Origin: Nitrospirota bacterium
Lineage (GTDB): Bacteria > Nitrospirota > Nitrospiria > Nitrospirales > Nitrospiraceae
NCBI GenBank assembly: GCA_030645475.1
Contig: JAUSMA010000060.1
Span: 124,001-188,000, forward strand
Direction of reading: 5' to 3'
Length of the DNA: 64,000 bases
Of the stretch, positions 18,424 to 48,570 are shown in pieces. A program made the translations under genes and the position numbers. Every line of letters begins with the position of its first letter. Within the stretch, counting starts at the first letter, position 1. A model generated the notes under the pieces. The model saw only the letters and a program-made list of their open reading frames with translations, had not been told where the DNA came from and ran no database searches.

Positions 18424-18427
18424 CGAA

Positions 18428-33201: not shown

Positions 33202-33208
33202 GGGCCTG

Positions 33209-34834
33209 TTAGGCGTCTGGCTTGCCAACTTCTTCCCGCAGTTGAAACTTAAGGGAGGCATATTCTTTCATACAGTAGGCGAGCAACCGTTCTGAGCCGA
33301 AGAGCATCACCATCCTCCCGTCCTTGTCCACAAGCCGTCTCGTGTCCTGCGGCCAGTAGATGCGGGCAATCACGTCTGGATCGCCAGTCACCCAGCGGGC
33401 CAGGACGAAGGGCATGCGTTCGACAGTCGTCTTGACCCCATATTCGCTGTCGAGGCGCGAGGCGACCACATCGAACTGGAGTTCTCCGACTGCGGCCAGG
33501 ACCGGCTCGCGCCGCACATGGTCCGGGGAATAGAACACCTGCATGACCCCTTCCTCTTCCAGCTGCTGGAGTCCCTTCTGGAATTGCTTCTGCTTCGTGA
33601 GGTCCTGGCTGCGGAGCACGCCGAAACATTCCGGGGGAAAGAGCGGAATCGCATCGAAAGAGCGGGGATTGCCGGAACAGAGGGTGTCGCCGATGGCAAA
33701 GAGGCCGGGGTTCACGAATCCTACGACATCGCCCGGGTAAGCCTCCTCGATCGTTTCCCGGTCCCGCCCGAAGAGCCGGTGCGGTCGCGTCATCCGGATC
33801 TTCCGGTCCAACCGCGCATGGTGAACCATCATATCCTTCTCAAATCGGCCAGACACGATACGGAGAAACGCCATTCTGTCGCGATGTTGCGGGTCCATGT
33901 TCGCCTGAATCTTGAAGACGAAGCCGGAGAACTTTTCGTCCGTCGGCTGCACCAGTCCCTCCGAACTCATGCGAGGGCCTGGCGGAGGCGCAAGCTGAAG
34001 GAAGCCGTTCAGAAAGGGTTCGACGCCGAAGTTGGTGAGGGCACTTCCGAAGAAAACCGGCGTGAGCTGGCCTGCGAGAAAACGGTCGCGGTCGAATTTC
34101 GTGCCGGCGCCGCTCAGGAGGGCGATCTCTTCCTGGAGCGGGCCATAGGCTTCTCCAAGCGTCTCGGCCAGGCTCGGGTGGGGGAAGGTCTCCACTCGCA
34201 TCGGCGCCCGTTTCTGGTTATGGAGCGTCCGTTGAAAGAAGAGCACTTGGGGGTCTTGAAGGTCGTAGAGCCCTAGAAACCCGGAGCCTTCCCCGATGGG
34301 CCAATTGAAGGGCACTGCCGTCATGTTCAGGGTCTGTTCGATCTCTTCGAGTAGTTCGAAGGGATGGCGCCCCGGCAGGTCCATCTTATTGATGAAGGTC
34401 ATGATCGGGATATTGCGTTTGCGGCAGACGGCGAAGAGTTTCTTGGTCTGGGGCTCGATGCCCTTGGCACAGTCCAGCACCATGACGGCGCTGTCCACGG
34501 CCATGAGGGTGCGGTAGGTGTCTTCGCTGAAGTCCTGGTGGCCAGGCGTGTCGAGCAGGTTGACCCGCACACCCTGATAGTCGAACTGCAGCGCGGTGGA
34601 GGTGATAGAGATGCCGCGCGCCTGTTCCAGCTCCATCCAGTCCGACTTCGACGCTCGCTGATTGGACCGTGCATGGACGGCCCCGGCGAGGTGGACGGCT
34701 CCAGCATAGAGGAGGAGCTTTTCAGTCAGAGTGGTTTTTCCTGCGTCCGGGTGCGAAATGATGGCAAAGGTGCGTCGCCGGGAGACTTCTCGCGCCAGTT
34801 CATCGGACGACGACTTTTCGATCGGCAAAGACAT
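33209..34834 (-). CDS. prfC: Peptide chain release factor 3
   Basis: 541 residues. A GTPase that removes RF1/RF2 from the ribosome after peptide release. G motifs: SHPDAGKT (27-34), DTPGHQDF (G3), NKMD (G4). Domain 2 and the RF3 C-terminal domain follow (ECFGVLRSQDLTKQKQFQKG, GELQFDVVASRL). The ATG at 34834 is chosen because AAGGA lies seven bases before it and the family starts at about this point; an ATG-less upstream extension in frame is ignored. It is followed by the hydrolase gene in what looks like one transcript. Confidence 0.95.
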   Translation of the reverse strand: MSLPIEKSSSDELAREVSRRRTFAIISHPDAGKTTLTEKLLLYAGAVHLAGAVHARSNQRASKSDWMELEQARGISITSTALQFDYQGVRVNLLDTPGHQDFSEDTYRTLMAVDSAVMVLDCAKGIEPQTKKLFAVCRKRNIPIMTFINKMDLPGRHPFELLEEIEQTLNMTAVPFNWPIGEGSGFLGLYDLQDPQVLFFQRTLHNQKRAPMRVETFPHPSLAETLGEAYGPLQEEIALLSGAGTKFDRDRFLAGQLTPVFFGSALTNFGVEPFLNGFLQLAPPPGPRMSSEGLVQPTDEKFSGFVFKIQANMDPQHRDRMAFLRIVSGRFEKDMMVHHARLDRKIRMTRPHRLFGRDRETIEEAYPGDVVGFVNPGLFAIGDTLCSGNPRSFDAIPLFPPECFGVLRSQDLTKQKQFQKGLQQLEEEGVMQVFYSPDHVRREPVLAAVGELQFDVVASRLDSEYGVKTTVERMPFVLARWVTGDPDVIARIYWPQDTRRLVDKDGRMVMLFGSERLLAYCMKEYASLKFQLREEVGKPDA

Positions 34835-34888
34835 GGACGGTCCTTCTCTTAGGCTAGGCATCAGATGGAGATATGTTTCATGTACCTG

Positions 34889-34968
34889 CTCAGGTAGATA
34901 GGCTGAAGGCTTTTAGCCTGAAAGTTTTGATGCGAGATAATTTATCGCCTTCAGCCTGAACACCTGAG
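34889..34968. repeat. Nested inverted repeat with AGGCTGAAGGC arms
   Basis: CTCAGGT (34889-34895) pairs with ACCTGAG (34962-34968), and AGGCTGAAGGC (34900-34910) pairs with GCCTTCAGCCT (34947-34957). The same 11-base arm occurs at 9052 and, with one change, at 60654-60704. It sits upstream of prfC; there is no T run. Confidence 0.7.
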
Positions 34969-35010
34969 TAATTAATGTTTTAGCATCTGGCAGAGCAGAA
35001 AACTACGGGG

Positions 35011-35105
35011 GAGGGTAGCCTGTTGGTCTCCTGTGCTCGCGCAACGCGCGGCCTCGGAAGGCCCTCGTTGGACGCGCGCAGTGGGAGCCCAAGCAGGCCA
35101 CCCTC
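35011..35105. repeat. GC-rich palindromic repeat, copy c
   Basis: Arms GAGGGTAGCCTGTTGG and CCCAAGCAGGCCACCCTC, with an inner CTCGCGCAACGCGCGGCC and GGACGCGCGCAG. Best-preserved member of the family. The 421-bp gap between prfC and the next gene holds this unit, copy d and the nested repeat, and no gene. Confidence 0.75.
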
Positions 35106-35152
35106 TGAAGAGGCGAATGGGGAGGCTGGGAAGACCAGAAGAGAGCGGCCGG

Positions 35153-35222
35153 ACCATCCTTCTTGCTCGCTGAACGCGCACAATCGGAATGTGCTCGTTC
35201 AATGCGCGCATCGGAAGGGTGT
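35153..35222. repeat. GC-rich palindromic repeat, copy d
   Basis: Short version: TTGCTCGCTGAACGCGCACAA ... GTTCAATGCGCGCATC, between CCATCCTTC and GAAGGGTG. It is separated from copy c by about 47 bases in the same intergenic region. Confidence 0.65.
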
Positions 35223-35255
35223 CGAGGCTAAGGGTGTCCTTTAGAAGGTGGAGAA

Positions 35256-36635
35256 TTACAGTAGTGGATCGGCTAGTTTGAGGCTGTAGTCCCGCGAATA
35301 CAAGCCTGAATAGGGCACCTTTCTCTCAATTGCATAGATGAAGTTCATGCAGGTGTAAAAGGCATCGTCTGCCTCTTGATGTCCAATTGCTTTCTTGCGG
35401 TGAAGAAGAAGATTGCGGTGAAGAAGAAGATTGCGCTGATTGAGAACCTTTTCCACATGGTCAGAGAGCCTAATCCAGTAGTCGCTTTCGTTTCGGCCTC
35501 GATGAGCAGCGACAGTTTTGTCGAGATAATCCTTGAGCGTATCTCCCATCGCTAATTTGAAATAGGTTTTCCGCTTGGTCTGGCCAGTGATCTTATCACT
35601 TTGGTTTTTCAATCGTTTATATTCTGATGTGCTTTTCGGCAGCTTATCGAGCAGGATGCCTTCGATTATATTTGACATGATTGTTCCAGCCCACACCAAG
35701 CATTCACGATACTGACCGTACAGGTGAGCAGTCTTGAGCAATGAGACGGCTACGGGAAGAAATGGGGGGGATTGCGATAATAGAAGGGATGAAAAAAGAA
35801 GCTTCCGGGAGGTATCTTCTTGAACATCCCGTTTCTCCATCCCACGCAACTGCATTTCACTCTCGTACGGATTTCCCGTGAGGAAAACAGTTTTCGGGCC
35901 GTCTGTTAAGACGACGACCATGGCGGCGCTAATGGCATCGGCAAAACCTATTGGCCGAGCAGCAGGATCATCGAATGCCAGGCGATATGCCTCGATGACA
36001 TGGTTTACGACACGAATCGATAACCTAAGACATTCAGATTGAATAACGCGAGCGGTGAAGACATCGAAACCCTCATCTTTCTCTCTTAGAAATGATTGAA
36101 CGGTGCGTTGTAGAAACTCTTCCCTGCCAGAAAGTGTAAGCTTAACTATCGTTTGTCTCAGCGGAGCAGCATGGCCTCCAAATTCGAAATGAAATGGAAT
36201 GGTGGAGGTAGTGATTCGCTCAAGGTTTACCGGCAGTTCCTTCCCATCAACGCGACAGGGAAATGTGGATTTGTCTTCATGCAGCCGAGAAAATACTACC
36301 GGGGTTATGAGATACACATCAATGTGGTCAATGTCATTGAGTTGGAGGTGATGAAAACGGTTCATGATTTCCCATCGTTTCCGTTCCTCTGCCTCCGCTG
36401 TCAGATCCCACTCCTCCTTAGGTTTTCTTTGGACCCTTCCTCTGACCACCGGCATTCCCTCTGTTTGGTCCGGGTCTAAACAGAAGACATAATTCTTGAG
36501 AGCCCCTTCTTGATTGAATTCACCAGCGTCGCCCACTCTTAACCCAGGTTCAAGGTTTTGCAGAAGGGATTCCGATGGCCCTGATGATGCAGACTTAATC
36601 TCTCCTGTTTTAGTTACGAAGGTGACGAATCTCAT
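35256..36635 (-). CDS. HEPN-like C-terminal protein, accessory
   Basis: 459 residues, unknown overall. The C-terminal third (about 300-450) is helical, with the HEPN-RNase-type motif R-N-x-x-x-H. This occurs twice in tandem: Arg401-Asn402 ... His406 and Arg407-Asn408 ... His412. HEPN proteins are RNases in toxin and abortive-infection systems, so a defence role is possible; the N-terminal 300 residues give no family. There is a clear AAGGAG ribosome site, and a perfect 8-bp inverted repeat just upstream. The region is richer in A and T than its neighbours, which suggests acquisition. Alternatively the motif could be fortuitous. Confidence 0.7.
   Translation of the reverse strand: MRFVTFVTKTGEIKSASSGPSESLLQNLEPGLRVGDAGEFNQEGALKNYVFCLDPDQTEGMPVVRGRVQRKPKEEWDLTAEAEERKRWEIMNRFHHLQLNDIDHIDVYLITPVVFSRLHEDKSTFPCRVDGKELPVNLERITTSTIPFHFEFGGHAAPLRQTIVKLTLSGREEFLQRTVQSFLREKDEGFDVFTARVIQSECLRLSIRVVNHVIEAYRLAFDDPAARPIGFADAISAAMVVVLTDGPKTVFLTGNPYESEMQLRGMEKRDVQEDTSRKLLFSSLLLSQSPPFLPVAVSLLKTAHLYGQYRECLVWAGTIMSNIIEGILLDKLPKSTSEYKRLKNQSDKITGQTKRKTYFKLAMGDTLKDYLDKTVAAHRGRNESDYWIRLSDHVEKVLNQRNLLLHRNLLLHRKKAIGHQEADDAFYTCMNFIYAIERKVPYSGLYSRDYSLKLADPLL
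35397..35432. repeat. 18-bp tandem duplication inside HEPN-like gene
   Basis: Two perfect, adjacent copies of GCGGTGAAGAAGAAGATT (plus strand). In the minus-strand frame each encodes the six residues N-L-L-L-H-R, doubling the R-N-L-L-L-H motif. Confidence 0.9.
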
Positions 36636-36656
36636 GGATCGGCTCCTTATTTCCCA

Positions 36657-36682
36657 GTCCCAATGCTACGACTTATTGGGAC
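36657..36682. promoter_or_regulatory. Inverted repeat upstream of HEPN-like gene, candidate operator
   Basis: GTCCCAAT (36657-36664) and ATTGGGAC (36675-36682) form a perfect 8-bp inverted repeat with a 10-base spacer. It lies 22 to 47 bases upstream of the HEPN-like start codon, the usual place for an operator or an mRNA hairpin. No cognate regulator is known. Confidence 0.4.
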
Positions 36683-36843
36683 GAATAAGTCTTTCGAGAC
36701 AGCTGTCTATTGAGTGCGGCCTCCGTAGCAACCCAGCAAGTAATAATACTCCCTCTTTCCCCTTTCTCCCGCAAGCGTCCAAAGTGTCTGAAAGAGATAA
36801 AGGGGGCGAGATGAGCTGGCGGAAGATGTCGCAACCGTTTTCA

Positions 36844-36912
36844 GAAATCCCCGCGAGTTGAGCCTGCCGGACGCTGACTACTGGACTTTCCTTTCACTTA
36901 TCACGGATTACT
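36844..36912. repeat. CGCGAGTTGAGCCTGCCGGA repeat, copy A
   Basis: About 70 bases: GAAATCCCCGCGAGTTGAGCCTGCCGG then ACGCTGACTACTGGAC. Shares the core with 37718, 43451, 44623 and 45293. Together with 36983-37107 it forms a composite block also found at 43451-43832. Confidence 0.65.
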
Positions 36913-37611
36913 TTCCTTCAAGGGGTGGCGGTCATCGAGACTGCTCCGCGTAGGGCTTGTCAGCTCTTTCCCCGTTTCCTCTAGGGCGGCCTGATTTACT
37001 CCCTGACTGCGCGCGTTCAACGAGGGGAGTCTTCGACCGCGCGTTGCGCGAGCAAGGGGAGTAATCAGGCTGCCCCTCTCCGCTCCGAGACATACGCCAT
37101 CAGCTTTTTTCTTCTTGTGACTGCTAGTTGTAGGTCTGTTCGTTTCGCTTGGCGAGTTTGAGGAAGACGACTTTTTTGCGCTGGTCGTCGATATCGTAGA
37201 GTACTCGGTAGGGGCCGACTCGCAGCCGATACTCGGCGGTGAAGCGTGACACGATGAGTTCTCCCGTGAGCTTCTTGGTCCGCTTGCCCTGAGGTCGGGG
37301 ATTGGTTTTGAGGGATCTGATGGCGGCAAATAGAAGCCCATTTTCTTGAAGAGCCTCTTCGCAGGGACTTCTTTCCCTCGCGCATACTCGGTCCGTGCTC
37401 GTTCGATTTCTGCAAGCAGCTTCTTGTCTTTCAACTCATTGAGGGTGTCGACCAAGTTCAGCATGTCCTCGTAGGGGACAAGGAACGACACAGGTTTGCC
37501 ATGGGAGAGGACCACCGTGGGGGATTTCGAGCGGATCAGTTTCGATAATTGCGCTTGGGCATCACGTACGTTGATCGGCTTTGCTTTTCGCACCAGGTTT
37601 GTCGCGCTCAT
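36901..37611 (-). CDS. YefM/Phd-type antitoxin with aberrant C-terminus
   Basis: 236 residues in total, but only residues 1 to about 95 are real antitoxin: KPINVRDAQAQLSKLIRSK, then VVLSHGKPVSFLVPYEDM, as in the Phd/YefM DNA-binding fold that neutralises a RelE toxin and represses its own operon. Normal members are 80-95 residues. After about residue 95 the frame reads through the toxin remnant out of frame and then through the palindromic repeat, giving a Ser/Pro/Arg-rich tail with no family. The ATG at 37611 follows a GGAGG site. It may still bind DNA, or may be a decayed relic. Confidence 0.8.
   Translation of the reverse strand: MSATNLVRKAKPINVRDAQAQLSKLIRSKSPTVVLSHGKPVSFLVPYEDMLNLVDTLNELKDKKLLAEIERARTEYARGKEVPAKRLFKKMGFYLPPSDPSKPIPDLRASGPRSSRENSSCHASPPSIGCESAPTEYSTISTTSAKKSSSSNSPSETNRPTTSSHKKKKADGVCLGAERGSLITPLARATRGRRLPSLNARSQGVNQAALEETGKELTSPTRSSLDDRHPLKESNP
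36983..37077. repeat. GC-rich palindromic repeat, copy e (reverse orientation)
   Basis: Arms AGGGCGGCCTGATTTACTCCC and GGGGAGTAATCAGGCTGCCCCT; the inner part reads CTGCGCGCGTTCAACGAGG ... CGCGCGTTGCGCGAGCA. It is the reverse complement of the family as written for copy c. The antitoxin reading frame runs through it before stopping at 36901. Confidence 0.75.
37124..37372 (-). pseudogene. RelE-type toxin remnant
   Basis: Translation of the minus strand in this frame gives about 73 residues clearly like a RelE/ParE toxin: LLFAAIRSLKTNPRPQGK, then KKLTGELIVSRFTAEYRL and RVGPYRVLYDIDDQRKKVVF, ending with a stop at 37124-37126. There is no ATG, GTG or TTG in the open part of the frame before this homology, and about 25 N-terminal residues of a normal toxin are missing. 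It also directly abuts the antitoxin in another frame. It is therefore a 5'-truncated, probably inactive toxin, which explains why the antitoxin has no normal stop. Confidence 0.8.
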
Positions 37612-37717
37612 GCAGGCCTCCAATTGTATGGTACTTTTAGAGATTGGCAGATTCCATCATGTCCGGCAAGGTTGACGTTGCGTGCGGGTACAGGGCGTGG
37701 CCGTGCCCTTGCTTGGG

Positions 37718-37750
37718 TTTTCTCATGAGTTGAGTCTGCCGGAAGCGTGA
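37718..37750. repeat. CGCGAGTTGAGCCTGCCGGA repeat, copy E (partial)
   Basis: TTCTCATGAGTTGAGTCTGCCGGAAGCGTGA, a short diverged copy of the family. The 306-base gap between the antitoxin and the next gene contains this and nothing else I can support. Confidence 0.5.
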
Positions 37751-37917
37751 AGGAGACAGGCTTGTAAGCGGCCTGTCCCTTTCTGTTTTGATGGTTGCTG
37801 GCGACTTCTTTGAGGGGTGGCAGAGCCCTGAGCGCAATCAGCTTCTCCGGTAAGGAAAACTTTTGGCGTACGAGAGCTGCCGTTGACGGGCGAGGTCAAG
37901 AGGAATAGACTCGGGCC

Positions 37918-38289
37918 ATGAACGCGCCTTCCCATCCCTTCCGGTCTGTGCTCGCCGTTTCGCTTGTCGTGCTCTTTTTCGCGTTGAGCTTTAATGCCTA
38001 TGCCTGCCTTCTGCCTGTGAATGGCGTCATGGCTACTGCCATGGGCAAGGACTGTTCGACTCCAGAGGAGCTACCGGTCTATCAGTTCTGCGATGCGTTT
38101 AAGACGCTCGGCGTGCAGTCGGTCGATAAGCTCCACTTCGAGAGTGACTCTCACGCGCTCTGCCCGGAAGACACCGCCTCATTAGCCCTTCGTGCCGCCA
38201 TCATCTCGCACAGCAGCCGTTTGTTTGATCATCCTCCGGATAGTCCTTCACAGGATCTCCTGCTCAAGATTTCCGTGCTTCGTATCTGA
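37918..38289 (+). CDS. Small secreted Cys-containing protein
   Basis: 123 residues. Signal peptide (about 1-29, FFALSFNAYA), then a mature chain with four Cys (C30, and in KDCSTP, QFCDAF, ALCPED) that could form disulfides or bind metal. The segment VYQFCDAFKTLGVQS looks conserved in Nitrospira-type proteins I recall, but I cannot name a function. It stands 250 bases before the next secreted gene on the same strand, at the head of the transporter cluster. A metal-stress role is a guess from Cys content and context only. Confidence 0.7.
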   Translation: MNAPSHPFRSVLAVSLVVLFFALSFNAYACLLPVNGVMATAMGKDCSTPEELPVYQFCDAFKTLGVQSVDKLHFESDSHALCPEDTASLALRAAIISHSSRLFDHPPDSPSQDLLLKISVLRI

Positions 38290-38538
38290 TCTTCTCCGCC
38301 CATTTCTCACAATCGCTCCATCGCTAGCGCTGTGTTGCGTGATGCCAGGTTTCGGCGTCCGATCTACTGTCTCATTCATTGGGATGTGTACGACCGGCGC
38401 ACAGACACGGCATCAATCGTGACAGACATGCGAGGGCAGTCATTTCTCTGGAACGAAATAGATGAGGTTCGTGCTGTAAATCCATAACCGGCAGCCGGCG
38501 CACGGATACGGTGCGCCATATCAAGAGGAGGTGCAATC

Positions 38539-38892
38539 ATGACGAAGAATGGGAATGTATTGAGAGGTATTGCCGCGGTTCTGCTGATGGTGGGAATCGT
38601 GGCCTGCGCGGTGATGGCCAGTCCGCCTCAAGACCTTGTGGCCAAGAACGACCACGCAGGGCTGGAAGCCTGGTACGTGAAGGAGACCGCCCATCTCCGA
38701 CAACGCTCAAAGGACATGTTGGTCATGGCGGAGGAGTATCAGAAGAATCCTGAAGCGGGCTCGTACGGGGTAATGTCCCGCAAGGTCGATATGGTCCAGC
38801 ATTGCCAGAGCCTCGCGGCCATCTATACCAAGGCCGCTGATGAGGCCGAGGTGATCGCACGCGCGCATCGAGACATGAAGGGCCATTCGTAA
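38539..38892 (+). CDS. Small secreted helical protein
   Basis: 117 residues. An N-terminal hydrophobic segment (about 8-27, VLRGIAAVLLMVGIVACAV) gives a signal peptide or a lipobox at VAC. The mature region is helical and charged, with two recognisable stretches, EAWYVKETAHLRQRSKDM and VQHCQSLAAIYTKAADEAEV. A strong GAGGAGG ribosome site precedes the ATG. Probably the first gene of the transporter operon that follows; likely periplasmic. No function is known to me. Confidence 0.75.
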   Translation: MTKNGNVLRGIAAVLLMVGIVACAVMASPPQDLVAKNDHAGLEAWYVKETAHLRQRSKDMLVMAEEYQKNPEAGSYGVMSRKVDMVQHCQSLAAIYTKAADEAEVIARAHRDMKGHS

Positions 38893-38918
38893 AGAAGTAT
38901 TTACGAAGCCGTGAGCCT

Positions 38919-40232
38919 TTGGCGGTCATAGGCGGGAAAGAAGTTGTGGCGCGTCCAGCAATCCAGAAGCAATTCTTTGACGCAGCGGTGGCGTTCATCG
39001 TGATCGCCATGGTTACACCAACGATGCTTGCGGCAGCAGACAGGCCAGCGGCACCCTTCGATTATTCGAAGGGTGCCGCTCAGTCTCAATCGGCAGCAGG
39101 CGCCGAGGCAGACCCGTTCGCGGACCTTGCCGAACCCCCGATGTCGCAGGCAACTCCCGAACAGGCCTCGCGCTCGTGGCGGCAGACATTGTTTACCGAG
39201 AATTTCGGCTTCAGAAAGGAAATCATGTCGCAGTTCGACATGAACGAGCGAGGCAAAACCGCCAGTCGCCAGTCCGTTGGTTTCGAGGCGCTCAAGAAGT
39301 TCTCGACGGCGACTGCGACCCTGGCCAGCTTCGATTTCCAGGGGCGGCTGGTCCGTCGAGATGGGTTCAATCCAGTGCAAAACGATATGGAGGGCCAGGG
39401 TCGGCCCGGTTGGACGTTCGAGTATCACAACGCCTATCTGGACCTGTACAACGTTCTCAATCCTCTGTTGAGCGATGAACAGCGCAGCAACACGGTCGGG
39501 CATTTCAATCTTCGCGCAGGCCGGTTCTATGTTCCGTTCGGACTCAACCTCCAGACTGACACCCATGGCACGGTGCTCCAGCTGTCCAACGACCGCAATT
39601 TCGGGTTCGAGCGGGACTGGTACACCGGCTTCTGGGGAGCGATCAACTCACATCTCAACTATGACGTCTACTATTTGGCCGGCTCCGGGTACGATCTCAA
39701 ATTCAAAGGCCAGAGCGGACTCGGCGCGATCAGGCTCAGCCTGGCTAACAAGTACAGTTACGAATACGGCTTGGAAGGCGGGCTGTCGATTCTGGGAGGG
39801 GAACGGCTGTCTCCTGATGCCGTCAAGCGCAGCCAAACTTTTGCCTCGGACGCAGGGGGTGCGAATCGCGTTGAAACCAAGCGGGTCGGCCTCGATGGCC
39901 GATATCGACAGGCGGTCCCGACGGGTCTGCTCACCGTCACTTCTGAGCTCAGCGGAGGCCGTGATCTGTCCAGCCATGTGTTCACGCAGCTCTATCAAGC
40001 CGAATATCTTCGCGCCTCGCGCCAGTGGGGCGTCTCCGCGCAATATCGACGATTCCAGCAAGAGGGGCTCGGCGCCGATGCGTCCATCATCGGCGAAGTC
40101 TCGTGGTACTTCCGGAACGACATTGGTAACTCCAACTTGCATTGGATCAAACTCAATATCGAGCGCCAATTGGAACAGATGCAAGGGCCACAGAGCACCA
40201 TTGCCACAGTGCAATATTATTTTTATCAATAG
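38919..40232 (+). CDS. Outer-membrane beta-barrel candidate
   Basis: 437 residues from the TTG at 38919. The start is unsure; a GTG at 38946 is an alternative. A signal peptide (VAFIVIAMVTPTMLAAAD) leads to a region with many alternating aromatic/polar beta-strand segments (FNLRAGRFYVPFGLNLQ, YDVYYLAGSGYDLKFKG), ending in aromatic residues (VQYYFYQ) as expected of an outer-membrane barrel. A porin-like or efflux channel role is possible, not a TolC fold (no long helices). It lies 26 bases after the helical secreted gene and 9 before the next one. Confidence 0.75.
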   Translation: MAVIGGKEVVARPAIQKQFFDAAVAFIVIAMVTPTMLAAADRPAAPFDYSKGAAQSQSAAGAEADPFADLAEPPMSQATPEQASRSWRQTLFTENFGFRKEIMSQFDMNERGKTASRQSVGFEALKKFSTATATLASFDFQGRLVRRDGFNPVQNDMEGQGRPGWTFEYHNAYLDLYNVLNPLLSDEQRSNTVGHFNLRAGRFYVPFGLNLQTDTHGTVLQLSNDRNFGFERDWYTGFWGAINSHLNYDVYYLAGSGYDLKFKGQSGLGAIRLSLANKYSYEYGLEGGLSILGGERLSPDAVKRSQTFASDAGGANRVETKRVGLDGRYRQAVPTGLLTVTSELSGGRDLSSHVFTQLYQAEYLRASRQWGVSAQYRRFQQEGLGADASIIGEVSWYFRNDIGNSNLHWIKLNIERQLEQMQGPQSTIATVQYYFYQ

Positions 40233-40241
40233 GAGGCGCGG

Positions 40242-40940
40242 ATGAAGAGCGTCGTCATGTTCATGATGTTCGCGGTTCTCGCGATGCCGCAACAGACATT
40301 TGCTGCGATCGGGTGCACGCTGAGCAATCCGGCGGAAGATCTGAAGTATCTCTATCCAGAGATGACGACCTATAAAGAGGATCTCAATGAGTTTCCATTG
40401 CTCAAGGATGGCACCGAGCTGTTCCGTGCTCTGCGGGAGCGTCTCGGCAGCGACTTAGATCCAATCTATGAGACCTACGAAACTCCCTATACCGTGTACA
40501 GCGTTTTCAAGGGCCAGCAGAAGATCGGGGTCGTCCATGGCGTCAACGTGCCAGGCAAGGGCGGCGTGATCCAGGTGTTCCTGTCGATGAATCCGCAGAC
40601 CGGCGCGATCAGGAGATTCTTCTTCCAGCGGCTGGAAAGCCCGGCGGCGCGCCAGCTGAGGAGTAAGGAGTTCCTCGGTCAATTCGAGGGCCTGACGCTG
40701 GGGGACTTCTACAAGCACGATTACTATGACACCGTCGATCCGGGCGCAAAGGCCGACAACGTCGCGGCCATTACGCCGCCGGTATTCGATCCAAGCGGCC
40801 GGCCTGATTACGAGGCGTCGCTCCGCGGCATCCGCAAGAATTTAATCCTGGTCGACTTCTTCGTCTACGGAAAGAAGTTCGAGCCATATTTTGAGCGAGC
40901 CAAGCAGGCAGCCGAGAAGGCGAAGGCTCGAAAGGAGTAG
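40242..40940 (+). CDS. Periplasmic FMN_bind-like protein
   Basis: 232 residues with a signal peptide (MKSVVMFMMFAVLAMPQQTFA). Residues about 80-160 resemble the FMN_bind domain seen in RnfG, NqrC and NosR: GKGGVIQVFLSMNPQTGAI then ESPAARQLRSKEFLGQFEGLTL, matching the family's glycine turn, a E-T/S-P segment and the F-x-x-Q-F-x-G motif. The Thr that carries FMN is not certain. If real, it would bind FMN covalently and pass electrons. It follows the barrel gene with TAGGAGG before the ATG. The last 20 residues are charged and helical. Confidence 0.65.
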   Translation: MKSVVMFMMFAVLAMPQQTFAAIGCTLSNPAEDLKYLYPEMTTYKEDLNEFPLLKDGTELFRALRERLGSDLDPIYETYETPYTVYSVFKGQQKIGVVHGVNVPGKGGVIQVFLSMNPQTGAIRRFFFQRLESPAARQLRSKEFLGQFEGLTLGDFYKHDYYDTVDPGAKADNVAAITPPVFDPSGRPDYEASLRGIRKNLILVDFFVYGKKFEPYFERAKQAAEKAKARKE

Positions 40941-40943
40941 GGG

Positions 40944-41315
40944 ATGAGAACGATACTGGTCCTATGCGCCGTCTCTCTTGTCGTCGGGGCGGTGCTCATC
41001 TGGTACATGGTGAGCCTGCCCAACGAGTACGGTGCATTCACGGGGATGCCGAAGGCCGAGGTCGCCGATCTCATCGAACGGCCGAAGGATTTTCTGCATA
41101 CAACCGTGGCCATTGAGGGAACGGTCCGGAAACAATGCACCACCATGGGCTGCTATTTCTTTTTTCTCTCAGGCGAGAAGGTGTTACGGGTCGATTTGGA
41201 GCAGATCACGATGGTGGCGCCGAGAAGGAATGGGCATGTTGCCCGCGTGGAAGGGCAGATTGTGCCCTATGGTGACGGCTATCAGTTTGTCGCCAGCGCG
41301 GTCGAATTTAAGTGA
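40944..41315 (+). CDS. Anchored small OB-fold-like protein
   Basis: 123 residues. An N-terminal transmembrane segment (about 5-24) is followed by a compact beta-rich domain: TTVAIEGTVRKQCTTMGCYFFFLSGEKVLRVDLEQ, with Cys-x4-Cys in the middle, similar in layout to small OB-fold DUF4920-type proteins (EG-x-V ... C-x-x-x-G-C-W). It probably faces the periplasm. The gap to the FMN_bind-like gene is three bases and to the permease nine, so this is one operon. The two Cys could bind a metal or form a disulfide. No function is known. Confidence 0.65.
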   Translation: MRTILVLCAVSLVVGAVLIWYMVSLPNEYGAFTGMPKAEVADLIERPKDFLHTTVAIEGTVRKQCTTMGCYFFFLSGEKVLRVDLEQITMVAPRRNGHVARVEGQIVPYGDGYQFVASAVEFK

Positions 41316-41324
41316 GGAGGAGCG

Positions 41325-42605
41325 ATGGAGGATACAACACAAGATCCGTTTGTGCTTCGGCGCTATGTCGTGCTGGCCACGAAGAACCTGCGCAGGCGTC
41401 CGATGCGCACGGGGCTCACCGTCGCCGGCGTCGCGCTGGCGGTGACGGTGGCCGTGTCGCTCGGAGGCTTTATGCTGGGCTACCGAGGGGCCATCGACAA
41501 GAGCATCAATATGCTGGGCTACCAGGTCATGATCATGGCCAAAGGCTGTCCCTACGAGGCCGCGACCATGATGCTCAAAGGAGGGACAGGATTGCTCTAC
41601 CTGCCGGGCGACACCTACCAACAGGTCAAGAGCGATCCGGACATCGAAAGCATCACGCCGATTTTCGTTGGGGTGGCGGAGAAACAGGCCAGCAGCATCC
41701 GTGACGAAGGTGCCGCCAGTAATTTCACGATCATCAGCGGCATTGATGTGCCGAGTTTCCTGGTCATGAAGCCCTGGCTCGGGTTCAAGAAGGGGCCGGG
41801 GTACGCCAATGGCCGATGGTTTACTCCTGGGAGCAAAGACGAGGTGGTCCTGGGCTTCGAAGCTGCCGAGTACGAGCAGCGCAAGGTCGGCGACAGCTTC
41901 TATGCCTCGATCACGCCGGCGGGCAAGCCCAATCCCGTCATGTATCAATTCACGGTCGTGGGCGTGCTGGAGCGGACCGGAACGCAGGACGACGGGACGG
42001 TCTTTCTGCCGATCGATGCGACGCGTGAATATTTCAACCGGCCAAACCAGTTGACGATCCTCGGCATCAAACTTAAGAAATTCAGTTCGTTCAAAATGCG
42101 CGAGTTCGAGATGCGCTGGCTCAAGCTGCCGGAGGTCCAGGTGGTCGGGTTGCAGCAGGTCAAGAATACGCTGGTCAACCTCGTCGCCACGGCCCAGACC
42201 ATGATTGCAGCCGTGGCCGCCATCGCCGTCATCGTCGCCCTCATCGGTGTCATCAACACAATTCTCATGAGTGTGTATGAGCGTACGGCGGAAATCGGCA
42301 TCATGAAAGCGCTCGGCGCGAGGCGAGGCAGCATCTTCCAGCTCATCTGGCTGGAAACCCTGATGGTGTGTTTTGTCGGGGCGCTGGCCGGTTCGGCGCT
42401 GGCGGTCATCGGCGCGGGTCTTGTCGAAAAGGCGATCAAAGGGCTGGCCGATCTGGGCCTGTCGGGGTCGATCGTGCAAATTACTCCGGCCCTCGTTGGA
42501 TACACCGTCCTCGTTGCCGTGGTGCTGGGATTCTTCGCCGGGCTCTATCCTGCCTGGCGTGCATCGTCGATGCGGCCCGTCGAAGCGATCGGGAAGGGCG
42601 GGTGA
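41325..42605 (+). CDS. MacB/LolC-type FtsX-family permease
   Basis: 426 residues. N-terminal transmembrane helix (about 29-52) with the MacB-type periplasmic domain (about 55-285, IDKSINMLGYQVMIMAK), then three C-terminal transmembrane helices (about 290-415) with the FtsX motif VYERTAEIGIMKALGARR. Permeases of this kind work as mechanotransmitters with a paired ATPase and do not themselves form a pore. A GAGGAG site precedes the ATG. The ATPase gene follows with one base between its ATG and this stop (TGATATG), so they form one ABC unit. Confidence 0.92.
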   Translation: MEDTTQDPFVLRRYVVLATKNLRRRPMRTGLTVAGVALAVTVAVSLGGFMLGYRGAIDKSINMLGYQVMIMAKGCPYEAATMMLKGGTGLLYLPGDTYQQVKSDPDIESITPIFVGVAEKQASSIRDEGAASNFTIISGIDVPSFLVMKPWLGFKKGPGYANGRWFTPGSKDEVVLGFEAAEYEQRKVGDSFYASITPAGKPNPVMYQFTVVGVLERTGTQDDGTVFLPIDATREYFNRPNQLTILGIKLKKFSSFKMREFEMRWLKLPEVQVVGLQQVKNTLVNLVATAQTMIAAVAAIAVIVALIGVINTILMSVYERTAEIGIMKALGARRGSIFQLIWLETLMVCFVGALAGSALAVIGAGLVEKAIKGLADLGLSGSIVQITPALVGYTVLVAVVLGFFAGLYPAWRASSMRPVEAIGKGG

Positions 42606-42606
42606 T

Positions 42607-43302
42607 ATGCATGACACCATCATCGAAGCCCATGGGCTCAAACGGTATTACTATCGCGGCAGCGAGACGGTCAAGGCGCTGGACGGCGTGGACCTGTCGA
42701 TCCGGACCGGCGAGATCGTTTCGATCCTCGGTCCATCTGGCTCGGGCAAGACGACGCTCATCAACCTGCTCTCCTGCCTCGATGCGCCGACAGAAGGGAC
42801 GCTCATGGTGGCAGGCAAGTCGGTCGCCGGACTCTCCGAGGACGAGCTGGTCGAGGTCAGACGCGGCCTGCTGGGGTTCGTGTTCCAACAGTTCTCCTTG
42901 TTGCCGACGCTGACGGTTTCGGAGAACGTCGAGCTCCCGCTGATGTTTCTGGGGCGTCGAACCGATGCCGGGAGGATCGCGGAGGTGCTGAGGATGGTCG
43001 GCCTGAGCGATCGGGCCACCCATTTGCCGCGAGAGCTTTCAGGAGGGCAGATGCAACGGGTGGCGATCGCGCGAGCCTTGATCGTGAATCCAAAGATTCT
43101 GGTCGCGGACGAGCCCACCGGGAACCTCGACAAGGCGACGGGAGAGTCCATCATCACGTTGTTCAAACATCTGGCAGCCGACAAAGGGCTGGCGATCCTC
43201 ATCACGACGCACAACCCAGTGTTCGGCTATGAGACGGACCGTGCCATTACGCTGGAAGATGGCAGGATCGTCAAGGAAGAGGATCTGCGAAAGGGGAGAT
43301 GA
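42607..43302 (+). CDS. ABC transporter ATPase, LolD/MacB type
   Basis: 231 residues. Walker A GPSGSGKTT (about 41-49), Q-loop FVFQQFSLL, signature LSGGQMQRVAIARAL, Walker B ILVADEPTGNLD, H-switch ITTHNP. All catalytic motifs are present, so it is active. The size and motifs fit the MacB/LolD/FtsE family that pairs with FtsX-type permeases. The ATG at 42607 begins two bases after the permease stop. The longer frame upstream (from 42373) lies inside the permease and is not used. It is the last gene of the cluster. Confidence 0.94.
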   Translation: MHDTIIEAHGLKRYYYRGSETVKALDGVDLSIRTGEIVSILGPSGSGKTTLINLLSCLDAPTEGTLMVAGKSVAGLSEDELVEVRRGLLGFVFQQFSLLPTLTVSENVELPLMFLGRRTDAGRIAEVLRMVGLSDRATHLPRELSGGQMQRVAIARALIVNPKILVADEPTGNLDKATGESIITLFKHLAADKGLAILITTHNPVFGYETDRAITLEDGRIVKEEDLRKGR

Positions 43303-43450
43303 TGGCCCGGCCTCGCCGATTCGAATCCGGAGCACGCAAATAGCCGTTCCATTCTCACATCTCGCACCACCGCCGAAAAACCAAAGGGGACGAGAGTTTT
43401 TCTTTATCATCTGTTGCGTGGGCCAGTGAGTGGGGCCGTAACCGTTTCCT

Positions 43451-43520
43451 GAAATCCCCGCGAATTGATTCTACCAGGAAGCTGACTGCTCCATTCTTCT
43501 CCAACTTCACTTCGATCACC
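43451..43520. repeat. CGCGAGTTGAGCCTGCCGGA repeat, copy B
   Basis: GAAATCCCCGCGAATTGATTCTACCAGGAAGCTGACTGCTCCATT; shares its start and layout with copy A and is followed, as copy A is, by a GC-rich palindrome and a short GATAGC-type repeat. The 677-bp gap 43303-43979 holds only repeats. Confidence 0.6.
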
Positions 43521-43605
43521 GTCGGGATGCGCCGTTATGTCGTAGGAGACGAAGCTTGCCGAAGCGTTAAGCTGACGGGCTTGTAGTCTCTTCTACTTTT
43601 CCTCT

Positions 43606-43776
43606 AGGGTGGCCTGGTTCACTCCCTGACTGTGCGCGTCCAATGAGATCTGGTTCATCTGGTCTATGTTGTCTTTCTGGTTTGTCTGATTGGTTGGACT
43701 GGAAATTCATCCAGAAGAACCAGACAGACAAGCCCGTGCGCGTTGCGCGAGCAAGGGGAGCAATCAGGTCGCCCCT
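43606..43776. repeat. GC-rich palindromic repeat, copy f, with 88-bp insert
   Basis: Arms AGGGTGGCCTGGTTCACTCCC and GGGGAGCAATCAGGTCGCCCCT, reverse orientation. Between TGCGCGTCCAATGAG and CGTGCGCGTTGCGCGAGCA an insert of about 88 bases (43646-43733) replaces the usual 20-25 base centre. The insert itself carries an inverted pair, TTGTCTTTCTGGTT and AACCAGACAGACAA, with one mismatch. Confidence 0.7.
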
Positions 43777-43791
43777 CTCCTTCTTCACTCC

Positions 43792-43832
43792 GAGCCATAC
43801 GCTATCGGCCATCAGCTATCAGCCATATGCTC
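43792..43832. repeat. GATAGC/CATCAGC short repeat
   Basis: GAGCCATACGCTATCGGCCATC then AGCTATCAGCCATATGCTC. Imperfectly palindromic, and the reverse complement of the start of the element at 18428. A shortened version is at 37080-37107. Confidence 0.55.
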
Positions 43833-43979
43833 TTTTCTTCAGACGGGAGGTGCTGGAGCGAAGGGCTCTGCCACCATGATTAGGCCACGCGAGCGGGTTG
43901 TTTTTCCTGCCATGTTATGTGAAAAATCACTTCTCACTTTCGTAAGTCTGACTCTTCAAGAGCATGATGGGAGGAGAGC

Positions 43980-44546
43980 ATGGATCACAGTTTGATCGCA
44001 CATCTTGGGCCGCTTGCGGCGTTGGCTGGAGTGTGGGAGGGACAGAAGGGGGAGGATGTGGCGCCTTCGGACGATCGCGGGACTGAGCGCAATCAGTTTC
44101 GTGAGCGGATGACCTTCGAGCCCATGGGCCCGGTCCGCAATCACGAACAAACCCTCTATGGGTTGCGCTATGCCACGACTGTGTGGCGTCTCGGGGAGAC
44201 GGACCCCTTTCACGAGGAACTGGGCTACTGGCTGTGGGATGCCCAGGCCAAGCAAGTGCTCCGCTGTTTCATTGTGCCCCGCGGGGTCACGGTGATTGCC
44301 GGCGGGACGGTCGAACCGTCGGCCACGTCCTTCTCCCTTGCGGCGGATGTGTCGTCGCACACCTACGGCATTTGCTCAAATCAATTTCTAGACAAAGCAT
44401 TCAAGACGGTGCGGTATGAATTGACTATCACGGTGCTGGATGCCGACCAGTTTCGTTATGAGGAGGATACACAACTCCAGATTCCCGGCCAAGCAGAGCT
44501 ATTCCATCACACGGATAAGAATACCCTCTCGCGCGTCAAGTCGTGA
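43980..44546 (+). CDS. Nitrobindin/THAP4-type heme-binding beta-barrel protein
   Basis: 188 residues. The N-terminal LGPLAALAGVWEGQKG and the following FHEELGYWLWDA, FIVPRGVTVIAGGTVE match the small ten-stranded nitrobindin/THAP4-type barrel (P-L-x-x-L-x-G-x-W-x-G ... H-E-x-G-Y-W). Those proteins bind ferric haem and can detoxify peroxynitrite. The axial His of nitrobindin cannot be located with certainty here; HHT near residue 176 is one candidate. Cytoplasmic; no signal peptide. The ATG at 43980 has GGGAGGAGAGC upstream. It stands alone among repeats. Confidence 0.65.
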   Translation: MDHSLIAHLGPLAALAGVWEGQKGEDVAPSDDRGTERNQFRERMTFEPMGPVRNHEQTLYGLRYATTVWRLGETDPFHEELGYWLWDAQAKQVLRCFIVPRGVTVIAGGTVEPSATSFSLAADVSSHTYGICSNQFLDKAFKTVRYELTITVLDADQFRYEEDTQLQIPGQAELFHHTDKNTLSRVKS

Positions 44547-44589
44547 GCCGATCGCAGAAAAACGGAGCGGGCGGGAGTCTTTGTTTTAC

Positions 44590-44612
44590 GTGCGCCCCTG
44601 CCACAGGGGCAC
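44590..44612. repeat. Hairpin GCCCCTG/CAGGGGC
   Basis: GTGC-GCCCCTG-CCA-CAGGGGC-ACAC, a 7-bp perfect stem with partly paired ends, just before copy C of the CGCGAGTTGAGCC family and 44 bases after the nitrobindin-like stop. Confidence 0.5.
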
Positions 44613-44622
44613 ACTACTTCAC

Positions 44623-44695
44623 GGAATTCCCGTGAGTTGAGCCTGCCGGAGGTTGACCGTTCTATTCTGCTCCTACCCTACATCGATTACTTCCC
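44623..44695. repeat. CGCGAGTTGAGCCTGCCGGA repeat, copy C
   Basis: GGAATTCCCGTGAGTTGAGCCTGCCGGAGGTTGACCGTTCTATT. The 524-bp gap between the nitrobindin-like gene and the small Cys protein contains this, the preceding hairpin, and a weak GATAGC-type stretch at 44772-44804; no gene is supported. Confidence 0.65.
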
Positions 44696-45070
44696 AGGAT
44701 GCGGAGCAAGCCCACAACAGAAGAAGGCCGTCGCTCGTATCGCGCGAAGCGCACCGCATTTCCGGATAGGAGCTGGTGGCTGAACGCTGAGTGCTGATAG
44801 CTATAGTCGTGAGCGACGGACGAAATTCGAAGAACCGCTCCGCGAGGCACTGAAGTGAAGGGTCCTGCTACCCCTCATATTTTCCGTGAGTGCGTCTGAT
44901 TCTCCTCTGTGCCTGTACTCATTGCCCTTCGAAGATACAACTCGCATTGGTTCGCAGCCCCAGGGTTACTCCATTACATCATTGTTTGTGCATCCACGTA
45001 TTGGCATCGGCCTTGCTCATAGTCCGTATGTGGGTGAGTCCATACATATTGGCATTGAGGCAGTGATGCG

Positions 45071-45325
45071 ATGAACATTCTTTGTGCATGGTGCGAAGAA
45101 GAAGGGAAGCAGGCACTGATCGGTGTGACCGAATCCGATCCCTCTACGATGGCCACACATGGCATTTGTCGTCAGCATGAAGTGGCACTCTTGACGCAGA
45201 TTGCCACTCTCGCTCGCAAAATGAAACGGAAGGATCGTGCGCCTGTCTTGTATGGAGGGGCGCGTGGGGGAGGAGCCGTTCCCACAGCAGTCCATTCCCG
45301 CAAGTTGAACCTACCGGAACGCTGA
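45071..45325 (+). CDS. Small zinc-ribbon-like protein
   Basis: 84 residues. The N-terminus NILCAWCEEEGK and the later GICRQHE provide a C-x-x-C ... C-x-x-H set that could bind zinc. Residues about 45-55 are helical and basic. The last 20 residues (from about 65) are encoded by repeat DNA (copy D), so the stop codon sits inside the repeat and the tail is probably not conserved. I recall similar small proteins in Nitrospira-type genomes, without known function. The ribosome site is weak (GAGGCAG). Confidence 0.6.
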   Translation: MNILCAWCEEEGKQALIGVTESDPSTMATHGICRQHEVALLTQIATLARKMKRKDRAPVLYGGARGGGAVPTAVHSRKLNLPER

Positions 45326-45360
45326 CCGCTATCTTCTTGTTCCTTCACGCACCGATTGTC
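45293..45360. repeat. CGCGAGTTGAGCCTGCCGGA repeat, copy D
   Basis: CATTCCCGCAAGTTGAACCTACCGGAACGCTGACCGCTATCTTC; overlaps the 3' end of the zinc-ribbon-like gene. Confidence 0.65.
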
Positions 45361-45375
45361 ACCAGGCTGCGTCGA

Positions 45376-45783
45376 TCACGGAGTATCTTGAGACTCAGGT
45401 TCTTGTTGCAGCGGGCCCTCCTGTAACTGCTGCTGCACGGCTTCTAGTAATTCCGCCAGCTCGAGGGGTTTCTTCATCGTGCGATGCGCACCCAGGAGTT
45501 TGGCCACTTCGAGGAGGTTGGGCTCCCCCGCGCCGCCAGTCAGAGCGATAATCTTGGCGTGCGGCGATTCACGCCGCAACGTCATCGTGACTTCCAAGCC
45601 GTCACTGTCCGGCATGAGCAGGTCCGTGATCACGAGCGCGACGGGAGTTTCTCTGAACCGCCGGAGTCCTTCTCGCCCATTGGCCGCATCGATAACGAAG
45701 TACCCGGCTTCTTCCAGTACCCGGCGAAGGAGGGCACGGATCTGGTCGTTGTCGTCAATGAGGAGGATGGAGCGAGGATGCAC
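45376..45783 (-). CDS. Stand-alone receiver-domain response regulator
   Basis: 135 residues, a single CheY-type receiver. Acidic pocket in LLIDDND (10-13), phospho-acceptor Asp54 in VITDLLMPD, Thr in ALTGG, Lys in MKKP near 104. There is no output domain; the C-terminus is a short Gln/Glu-rich tail. It probably acts as a phospho-relay or by binding a partner. Its kinase is not in the window. A GTG start is supported by GGAAGG seven bases upstream. It stands alone. Confidence 0.9.
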   Translation of the reverse strand: MHPRSILLIDDNDQIRALLRRVLEEAGYFVIDAANGREGLRRFRETPVALVITDLLMPDSDGLEVTMTLRRESPHAKIIALTGGAGEPNLLEVAKLLGAHRTMKKPLELAELLEAVQQQLQEGPLQQEPESQDTP

Positions 45784-46141
45784 GATGATGCCTTCCCGTC
45801 CGTAGCCAGAACCACGTCATGACCGTTCCGAGGGGATACGATATTGATGCGATCACGAAAGCGTTGCACATCGTCGATCATGCGAATCTGTGCTACGAGC
45901 TTCCCTCTGACTACAGCGCAGCCTATCACGGGGAGACCTTGGGGAAACCTGAGCATTCAGCCGGAGCCATACTAGGCTATGTGAGGCATTACGTAGGACT
46001 TGCACTGTCAGTTGAGTCTTTCGCTGGAAGGTGACTAGAAGGCAAGGGGGGAAGATGTCTGAACCATACCGGACCCTACGCGAAGTGCGTTGAAGCTAGG
46101 CAGTCGGATGGCGCACAGAGTGTGGCGCGTCGCCGCGTGAA
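45784..46141. other. 358-bp gap, no gene supported
   Basis: An open frame of 71 codons at 45819-46034 has no ribosome site and no family-like content. Nothing else is evident. Confidence 0.5.
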
Positions 46142-47017
46142 TTAGAATTGTTCGAGCAACTGTTGCTTCTTCGCTCGGTATTCTTCTTCCGTGATGAGCC
46201 CTTGCGTATACAGCCGTTTCAGCGTCTGGAGTCGTTCCTCGATGGGCGTGGGTGGAGAAACGGTCCCCGGAGTGGGCGCTGGCGATTGATTCACGGTTGA
46301 GATTTCCTGGGCGCCTGTCTTCGTGACAGGCTGGCCCGAGGGGAGTGCGTGATAGACAATTGCGAGATGAAGGGGGCTCGAGGTGAACAGGCTCAGTGCG
46401 GACTTGGGTGCTCGGACGATCGTCTGTTGGGTGCCTGCGATGAGACTGTACGAAGAGTCACTGTCAGGGTGAAGCGGCTGCTCCCACAGTAATTGGTGCA
46501 TGTTGGACATGGTGACGCTCACCCGATAGTTGGCCAAGACGAAATGCAGGTCAGGGCCATCCAGATACCATCCGCCAGTGGTTAGTTTGCTGAGCCCTCG
46601 TGACCTCTCTGGATTGAGCCCAAACACGACCCATTCGTTGGGTTGAGCTTGGGCAAACGCTTTGCTCAAGGTCACGCTGAGGTAGTCGATCTCCTCTTCG
46701 GTGAAGACCGACAGGATTGGCTCTTGTGGGTCGGATGCAAAGAGCCGTTCGGCCTGATGCTGGATGTGGAGTTCCTTGAGGATGGATGTCCAGTCTGCAG
46801 GGGGCAACAGGAAGGGATGGGTGAACGTGCGGGAGCTCACCGGGCGATCGGCGGAGGTGACGGCTTGTAATCGGACGAAGCGGTCCGCCTCCTCACATTG
46901 TCCACATGCAATCCTGGTTGCCGACGCCGCGATGGCGTCGGCTCCGCCTGTCAGTAACAATGTCGCTACGATCAGACATACACCGACAGAGACTTGCTTA
47001 TTCTGTGACGACTGCAT
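46142..47017 (-). CDS. Exported protein with C-terminal SHOCT domain
   Basis: 291 residues. Signal peptide (SVGVCLIVATLLLTGGADAIAA). The main part (about 40-235) is of unknown fold (VVFGLNPERSRGLSKLTTGGW). A Pro-rich linker leads to a C-terminal SHOCT domain of about 30 residues (RLQTLKRLYTQGLITEEEYRAKKQQLL), a short helical hairpin common at protein ends and thought to aid oligomerisation. The ATG at 47017 is chosen for its AAGGA site. Periplasmic. No operon partner. Confidence 0.82.
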   Translation of the reverse strand: MQSSQNKQVSVGVCLIVATLLLTGGADAIAASATRIACGQCEEADRFVRLQAVTSADRPVSSRTFTHPFLLPPADWTSILKELHIQHQAERLFASDPQEPILSVFTEEEIDYLSVTLSKAFAQAQPNEWVVFGLNPERSRGLSKLTTGGWYLDGPDLHFVLANYRVSVTMSNMHQLLWEQPLHPDSDSSYSLIAGTQQTIVRAPKSALSLFTSSPLHLAIVYHALPSGQPVTKTGAQEISTVNQSPAPTPGTVSPPTPIEERLQTLKRLYTQGLITEEEYRAKKQQLLEQF

Positions 47018-47425
47018 CAAGGTCCTTTCCCTTCAGTCGAACTCTTGGCGTCGTTTTGTTACTCGCGCCAGCTCGTGGGGCTCTCCTGCCTGAATGCGCG
47101 AAGTCTAACGCAATGAGCCTGATCTGACCAAGAAAATCTTAGCCAAGGAATTGGATTCATGCTGTTCCTGCCGCACATCGGATCTTCTTCGCAAAGAGGA
47201 TGTAGCCCTGAACGTCATGAGTGAGAGGAGCGGGGACGGCCCGTCGGTCTCACCGACTCGGCCACGTGCAATATTGTCACAGCTGACATCGCGCGTGTAT
47301 CGTGATTGTGCCAGGAGGGAGAGCGGACATGAACAGTGACCGGTCCGAAACACTGCTTTCTTGATGGATCAGGGTGGTTGAGCGTATTCGGCTGGAACGT
47401 GATCGCAGGAATCGATAGGGTCGGG
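47018..47425. other. 408-bp gap, no gene supported
   Basis: Open frames here are short, overlap in both directions and lack ribosome sites. No repeat of the families described above is seen. Confidence 0.5.
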
Positions 47426-48232: not shown

Positions 48233-48513
48233 CGTCTGGGATTCAAGATCCTTTTTGGTCGGGACACATCGAGTGTGTGACGTCTAGCAATAATGGGTAC
48301 GTACAGTTACGTCATGCCACGTTCTCTAATCGGTGCGGTCAGTTAAACGCTAAAGGCTCCAAGCACGTATAGTACGTATCGCACTGGGCACCGTCGGCCT
48401 CAGTCTATATGTTCGCCGTATTATGGGGCTGAGGAGGGGTAAATCCAAGGGAAACGTAAGATATTGCAGTCGCAGCCATGCACTCGAGGGCCAGAGGCAG
48501 TGGAATGATAGTC

Positions 48514-48546
48514 GAGGGGGCAGGGGGCATGCGCCCCTGCCCCCTC
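48514..48546. terminator. Strong hairpin 3' of DUF1566 gene
   Basis: A perfect 13-bp GC-rich stem, 48514-48526 (GAGGGGGCAGGGG) with 48534-48546, loop GCATGCG. It lies about 25 bases past the stop of the minus-strand gene at 48571. No T run follows on the minus strand, so it may stabilise the mRNA 3' end rather than terminate by itself. The rest of the gap back to 48233 shows no gene. Confidence 0.5.
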
Positions 48547-48570
48547 AGAGATAGATCCAATGACAATTTT

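Follow-up and report, generated by a model that had tools for sequence, protein, structure and literature searches.

The locus analysed here raises the question of what a protein resembling FMN_bind domains does between an outer-membrane barrel and an FtsX permease, next to an anchored protein with a Cys-x4-Cys pair. An earlier note had suggested a flavin redox step tied to an envelope ABC system. In the window, i.e., the whole 64,000-nt stretch of Nitrospirota DNA that was analysed, seven genes on the forward strand, from 37918 to 43302, make up one block. The envelope ABC operon proposed in the note was indeed found as the same-strand run 38919-43302, with the gene at 40242 lying between barrel and permease. 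It encodes a porin-like outer-membrane barrel (38919..40232, +; start codon uncertain), an FMN_bind-fold periplasmic protein without flavinylation motif (40242..40940, +; 232 aa, hydrophobic signal-like N-terminus), a membrane-anchored OB-fold protein related to DUF4920 (40944..41315, +; 123 aa, hydrophobic segment 1-27), an FtsX/MacB_PCD permease recognized by domain matches (41325..42605, +) and a LolD/MacB-type ABC ATPase recognized by domain and family matches (42607..43302, +). The barrel is termed porin-like on the basis of its homologues, 2 of 20 of which touch Porin_O_P (best E 0.0043); the protein itself had no Pfam match, and a PDB sequence search gave none.

Two small genes precede the barrel. 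The protein encoded at 37918..38289 (+), inside the shared block described below, is small, secreted and Cys-containing, and belongs to no family; that encoded at 38539..38892 (+) is small and secreted or anchored, with relatives near the cassette in the Acidobacteria loci L028 and L004. By eye, the C-terminal tails (..LRI/LRV) of the small secreted Cys-rich proteins L004:3222-3599, L016:3166-3663 and window 37918-38289 look alike, and in several Acidobacteria further short Cys-rich proteins are encoded ahead of the cassette.

Comparison within the Nitrospiraceae showed the cassette to be a 5.4-kb block. DNA homology to L003, L074 and L131 (76-90% identity) starts at 37880-37899 and ends at 43295-43304, with a gap in L074 at window 38445-38518. 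Outside the block, window 30000-50000 had no match to these three loci save a displaced piece, 46139-46930, in L074. In L131 the block starts approximately 40 bp from a tRNA-Leu gene, and a 96% identical 40242 protein in Nitrospira sp. CG24D marks the window as Nitrospira DNA. Where the block begins on the left there is a promoter-like TTGACG-17-TAGACT (37883..37911, +), the first hexamer being identical in 4/4 and the second in 3/4 Nitrospiraceae sequences; because shuffled sequences already give 1.8 such sites versus 4 found, this site is weak evidence by itself. Repeats near the presumed promoter were unremarkable. Patchy direct repeats (36830-37104 and 43437-43809; 82-93% identity over 39-57 nt, spaced by approximately 6.6 kb) flank the cassette, and since related pieces occur at 35013-35104 and 18426-18460, they resemble a dispersed repeat family more than they do a clear target-site duplication. 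Just downstream and outside the shared block, a THAP4-like heme-binding beta-barrel protein is encoded at 43980-44546 (PF08768, E 9.2e-23).

One pattern scan of genome_contigs yielded 30 loci (clade I), which by record title came from Nitrospira, Acidobacteria, Elusimicrobia, Bdellovibrio-like bacteria, Myxococcales/Deltaproteobacteria, Verrucomicrobia, Lentisphaerae and Planctomycetota. The complete order barrel-FMN-OB-FtsX-ATPase was kept in 23 of the 30 and six loci were cut by the sequence end; the one true exception, L020, had the FMN gene and a partial OB gene, with no permease or ATPase in the next 5.8 kb. At L072 an FMN-like gene stands alone, no other cassette gene being found beside it. 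The association is more than chance, as the same order is kept in other phyla. Record titles and the taxonomy of the genome collection differ, since L019 is titled Myxococcales and its genome G056 groups at phylum level with the Bdellovibrionales genome G045; the record of the L023 cassette is titled Akkermansia muciniphila, and here title or binning is doubtful.

A second arrangement (clade II) keeps barrel-FMN-FtsX-ATPase and places a YtkA-like gene in front, with no OB gene detected. The YtkA-like gene leads all 28 clade II loci fetched, namely 12/12 from Acidobacteriota (11 aligned and L059 read) and 16/16 others (15 Elusimicrobiota and one Nitrospirota; three were cut at a contig end or had an incomplete set). 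The window barrel gave no match in L061, L062, L065 and L066, and a barrel-sized gene stands at the barrel place in L061, L062 and L065. L067, which has the OB gene, is intermediate between the clades. The FMN profile was found in 6/295 sampled Nitrospirota genomes (4 strong, one clade II-like and one weak), 14/297 Acidobacteriota, 5/288 in the phylum of L024, 24/247 in that of L008 (one weak) and 2/195 in that of L007. Among the closest relatives, the gene was present in 2/41, own genome included.

In the FtsX tree (57 rows, to be read with caution for long branches and possible foreign contigs in bins), the window and L003 fell within an otherwise Acidobacteriota group (support 100/96), a placement which suits transfer of the cassette from Acidobacteriota. 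The permease had a sole match at E up to 1e-20 among 72,556 plasmid records, on Massilia putida plasmid NZ_CP019036 from wolfram mine tailing soil. The order there is ArsR/SmtB, a 313-aa protein, FMN-like, OB-like, FtsX, ATPase and DsbD_N; the 313-aa protein is a candidate counterpart of the barrel by its place. By hhalign, the Massilia FMN-like protein matched the FMN-like alignment A1 (95.5%) and the OB-like protein matched the OB alignment A2 (93.8%); the OB-like protein lacks the second of the two cysteines, and the permease motif reads GCPMEAASLALHGG. The Massilia proteins, used as plasmid queries, retrieved no further cassette; the window FMN-like and OB proteins matched no plasmid, and viral_contigs held no relative of the FMN-like protein. 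A phage or plasmid origin of the window cassette was discarded, there being no viral relative and only the Massilia plasmid, reached via the permease.

The FMN_bind fold that the earlier note had assigned to the 40242 protein, and on which it had made its idea depend, was confirmed by structure prediction: the AF2 model (pLDDT 90.1) matched RnfG and NqrC over approximately residues 27-213, with Z of 9-12. Foldseek against PDB returned NqrC and RnfG at a best E of 9.7e-5, the TM-scores being modest (0.41-0.43), and VIA-align gave Z 12.0 to 8ahx_G (rmsd 6.8 over 160 residues) and Z 11.8 to 8rb8_G (rmsd 2.9 over 141 residues), with IscU-type rows at Z of about 5. At the sequence level, Pfam FMN_bind (PF04205) at E up to 1 matched 0/28 clade I homologues, 0/1 clade II and 0/1 Massilia FMN-like proteins, and neither the FMN-like nor the OB protein had a significant hit in PDB sequence searches. 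A weak kinship of the FMN-like protein to an ApbE-adjacent FMN_bind protein was seen (E 5.4e-4).

ApbE attaches FMN at a [S/T]GA[S/T]-like acceptor motif (PMC10979944). This motif was found in 0/67 aligned FMN-like proteins (residues aligned to 22-212). Loose look-alikes occur in three rows, L007, L013 and L113, of which L113 alone has its look-alike near the relevant end. At the aligned acceptor place, the ApbE-adjacent FMN_bind relatives L129, L076 and L077 have GAT, GAT and GGT, the Massilia cassette protein has GAD and L128 has GTD; in the proteins of clades I and II nothing there resembles GAT. The FMN-like proteins have a conserved Cys25 (64/65 aligned rows) and His99 (64/67), which, like the lack of the motif and of the Pfam match, set the 40242 protein apart from RnfG and NqrC; no Rnf/Nqr-type complex is present in the cassette either. 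Cys25 was considered as a lipoprotein cysteine from its A-I/V-G-C context, and this was dropped because the Massilia protein reads A-D-V-C. Non-covalent flavin in the 40242 protein is possible. At L128:6154-10144 (Nitrospirota G757), a distant FMN_bind-like protein without GAT precedes a Fer4_5 membrane protein that has a Met/His-rich stretch; here too the FMN_bind fold may serve in a metal context.

For the anchored protein encoded at 40944, in which the note had pointed to a Cys-x4-Cys pair within a small beta domain, the model showed an N-terminal helix and a five-stranded OB barrel (pLDDT 91.2, Z up to 12.1), and the pair proved to be conserved. Cys65 and Cys70 (41136..41153, +) are invariant in the 29 rows of the OB alignment; in a wider first alignment they were present in 31/32 and 31/31, respectively. 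DUF4920 (PF16267), for which we know of no function, is matched at E up to 1 by 20 of the 29 OB members (best 4.4e-7), the window member not being among them.

The permease and the ATPase are nearest to the MacB and LolCDE/LolD models, and neither reached the NCBIfam cut-offs (89.7 bits vs 362.45 for lolCE and 214.5 bits vs 307.75 for LolD). In the 60 aligned permeases, G74, C75, P76, E78, A79, A80, G86 and G87 are identical and M83 is kept in 59. The motif, GCPYEAATMMLKGG (G74-G87; 41544..41585, +), comes after the first hydrophobic segment (28-53); by this position, and by analogy with MacB, the GCPxEAA site is presumed to be on the periplasmic side. Aligned MacB has no Cys or Met at this place. 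The cassette resembles MacAB-TolC in its MacB_PCD and FtsX permease with a MacB-type ATPase, here a separate gene, but differs in that no MacA-type fusion protein and no TolC-type protein are found among the five fixed genes; the GCPxEAA motif and the fixed FMN_bind-fold and OB or YtkA partners likewise separate it from MacB and Lol systems. Among the flanking genes scanned, an efflux-type outer-membrane protein is encoded beside two loci (L007 and L022), and one HlyD protein is encoded upstream of L005, adjoining an RND pump.

The genes near the cassette point to copper. In the 68 genomes with an FMN-like gene, 18 CsoR-family genes were found in 14 genomes; 7 of the 18 lie 1.3-2.0 kb from the FMN-like gene, with 0.04 expected within 3 kb (Poisson 4e-14; the genomes counted are related, so neither this nor any other such Poisson value is a true probability), and an eighth lies at 5.6 kb. 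The seven CsoR-linked genomes comprise four PVC (clade I) and three Elusimicrobiota (clade II), each without a second CsoR found. Nearness is not judgeable in G1055 and G1097, where CsoR is on another small contig, and the genome of the window has no CsoR. The Cu(I)-type fingerprint is present in all seven adjacent CsoR proteins: Cys-His-Cys, with a Tyr preceding the first Cys and a last-helix Glu, read as positions in an alignment of these sequences with no known CsoR included. In the CsoR family, Cys/His alone do not predict the metal and a second-shell Tyr predicts Cu(I) selectivity (PMC4235346).

Multicopper oxidases (PF07732) gave 49 matches in 17 of the 68 genomes, 5 of them (4 genes) within 6 kb of the FMN-like gene versus 0.14 expected; none was found on the cassette contig of the window genome. 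In L007 and L022 the outer-membrane efflux gene, a multicopper oxidase gene and the cassette stand in succession. The leading protein of clade II has an invariant DMPSM and His and was over the YtkA (PF13115) cut-off in 2/5 scanned. In Bacillus subtilis a YtkA domain supports copper trafficking (PMC13344008); compared with YtkA/CtaK, the clade II protein is a free secreted one and heads an ABC operon. A secreted YHS-like protein encoded upstream of L022 remained just below the cut-off (28.9 bits vs 30.3), and in L026 and L027 short proteins similar to it lie between the CsoR and barrel genes (tblastn 5e-8 and 1e-7), Pfam finding no YHS in the L026 protein. Other metals may be indicated in L006, where a MerR gene and an ArsP_1 permease gene adjoin the cassette, and an ArsR/SmtB gene heads the Massilia plasmid version.

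From the gene order kept across phyla, the CsoR, multicopper oxidase and YtkA genes linked to it, the metal regulators in L006 and Massilia and the permease motif, we give a probability of about 0.5 to the reading that the cassette is a soft-metal envelope ABC system which responds to copper and acts on copper in the periplasm. A relay of Cu(I) may be supposed because each partner offers soft-metal ligands (C25/H99, C65/C70 and the permease motif). Cu(I) would be captured in clade I by the Cys-x4-Cys pair of the OB protein and in clade II by the Met/His motif of the YtkA-like protein, with Cys25 and His99 of the FMN_bind-fold protein as further ligands, and would then pass to the permease, at whose periplasmic mouth the invariant GCPxEAA site would receive it. 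In MacB and LolCDE, ATP hydrolysis moves the periplasmic domain of the permease; the cytosolic LolD-like ATPase may do likewise, driving the metal, or a metal-loaded carrier, outward in the direction of the porin-like barrel. On this view an electron-carrier fold, FMN_bind, would have been taken over as a scaffold or for carrying metal. We infer from sequence that the substrate is copper and that the conserved residues bind Cu(I); outward transport is a guess from the usual sense of CsoR control, CsoR normally answering copper excess. At the sequence level there is good evidence that this FtsX-type ABC cassette is conserved, transferable and linked to copper, and the fuller proposal, an FtsX-type (mechanotransmission) ABC copper exporter with a flavinless FMN_bind fold as carrier that has spread between phyla as a compact block, is tentative, with odds somewhat against it. 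The copper reading is weakened by the lack of a fusion protein in the cassette and by 61/68 genomes having no CsoR within 3 kb of the FMN-like gene. The window genome, with no CsoR and no multicopper oxidase match on its cassette contig, also counts against it, as do the OB cysteine lost in Massilia, the OB gene not detected in clade II, and the loci L020 and L072.

Several other explanations were weighed. Known FtsX-type ABC systems such as LolCDE and MacB move large substrates, i.e., lipoprotein, lipid or peptide, and with a permease and ATPase nearest to these models, the pair here might move such a substrate upon metal damage of the envelope, copper acting only in regulation. This reading, to which we give roughly one chance in four, fits the regulator linkage without any metal transport, but leaves the Cys/Met motif of the permease, the OB Cys pair and the YtkA-like protein of clade II unexplained. 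Copper might also be delivered to a periplasmic or extracellular cuproenzyme instead of being exported, for which NosDFY, serving N2O reductase, is a partial parallel. Multicopper oxidase genes beside four cassettes agree with delivery, as does the YtkA-like partner, given that YtkA domains act in oxidase assembly (PMC13344008). However, 51 of the 68 genomes have no PF07732 match and hence no fixed client of that kind, and CsoR is normally tied to copper excess; delivery is considered improbable.

An equally improbable alternative is that the same machine handles another soft metal (Zn, Cd, Pb, Hg or As) in many hosts and copper only in the CsoR-linked ones; the ArsR/SmtB gene in Massilia and MerR with the ArsP_1 permease in L006 favor it, whereas the signals repeated across clades (CsoR type, multicopper oxidase and YtkA) are copper-related. 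The flavin-based redox step of the earlier note, e.g., periplasmic metal reduction tied to the ABC transporter, is the least likely of all and was set aside on the motif, the ApbE distribution and the copper context. In its favor are the FMN_bind fold, the adjoining Cys pair and ApbE, which is present in 52 of the 68 genomes. Against it, the acceptor motif is missing throughout, two of the three look-alikes being far from the site; no ApbE was found within 35 kb on cassette contigs, the nearest on any of these fragmented assemblies being 35.7 kb from the gene; and ApbE was not detected in 16/68 genomes, an absence that is soft because many genomes are incomplete bins. The search for ApbE that the note had called for succeeded in the genome of the window, which has one (C14:74989-75825), but on another contig than the cassette. 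This only ApbE is 3 kb from the only PF04205 match of the genome (C14:78853-79089), and C14:74989-79089, within L073, is perhaps a real flavinylated electron-transfer locus.

Gram-negative bacteria are described as removing envelope copper by RND pumps (Cus) and oxidation (CueO), with P-type ATPases clearing the cytosol (PMC13374858). The cassette is like CusCFBA/CopA/CueO in its linkage to CsoR and multicopper oxidase genes and in its presumed clearing of envelope copper, but it is of the FtsX type, not an RND pump or P-type ATPase. An FMN_bind domain also occurs together with copper and an ABC system in NosDFYL with NosR; there NosR is flavinylated and NosY is not known to be FtsX-type, whereas the FMN-like protein here has no flavinylation motif and the permease is FtsX-type. 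Our literature search, with subscription journals mostly outside its reach, gave no paper describing this cassette, and FtsX and MacB do not appear in PMC13374858 and PMC8836040. The available main text of the survey of flavinylation contexts (PMC8238504) has no 'ABC transporter', 'FtsX' or 'copper', a silence expected if these proteins escape the Pfam model.

The permease and ATPase belong to the MacB/Lol superfamily, and the partners and the copper link appear new. If the copper-export reading is true, FtsX-type ABC systems would be a further route of envelope copper removal, MacB/Lol-type mechanics would be applied to a metal, and the cassette would show plainly that the FMN_bind fold can persist without its flavin site.
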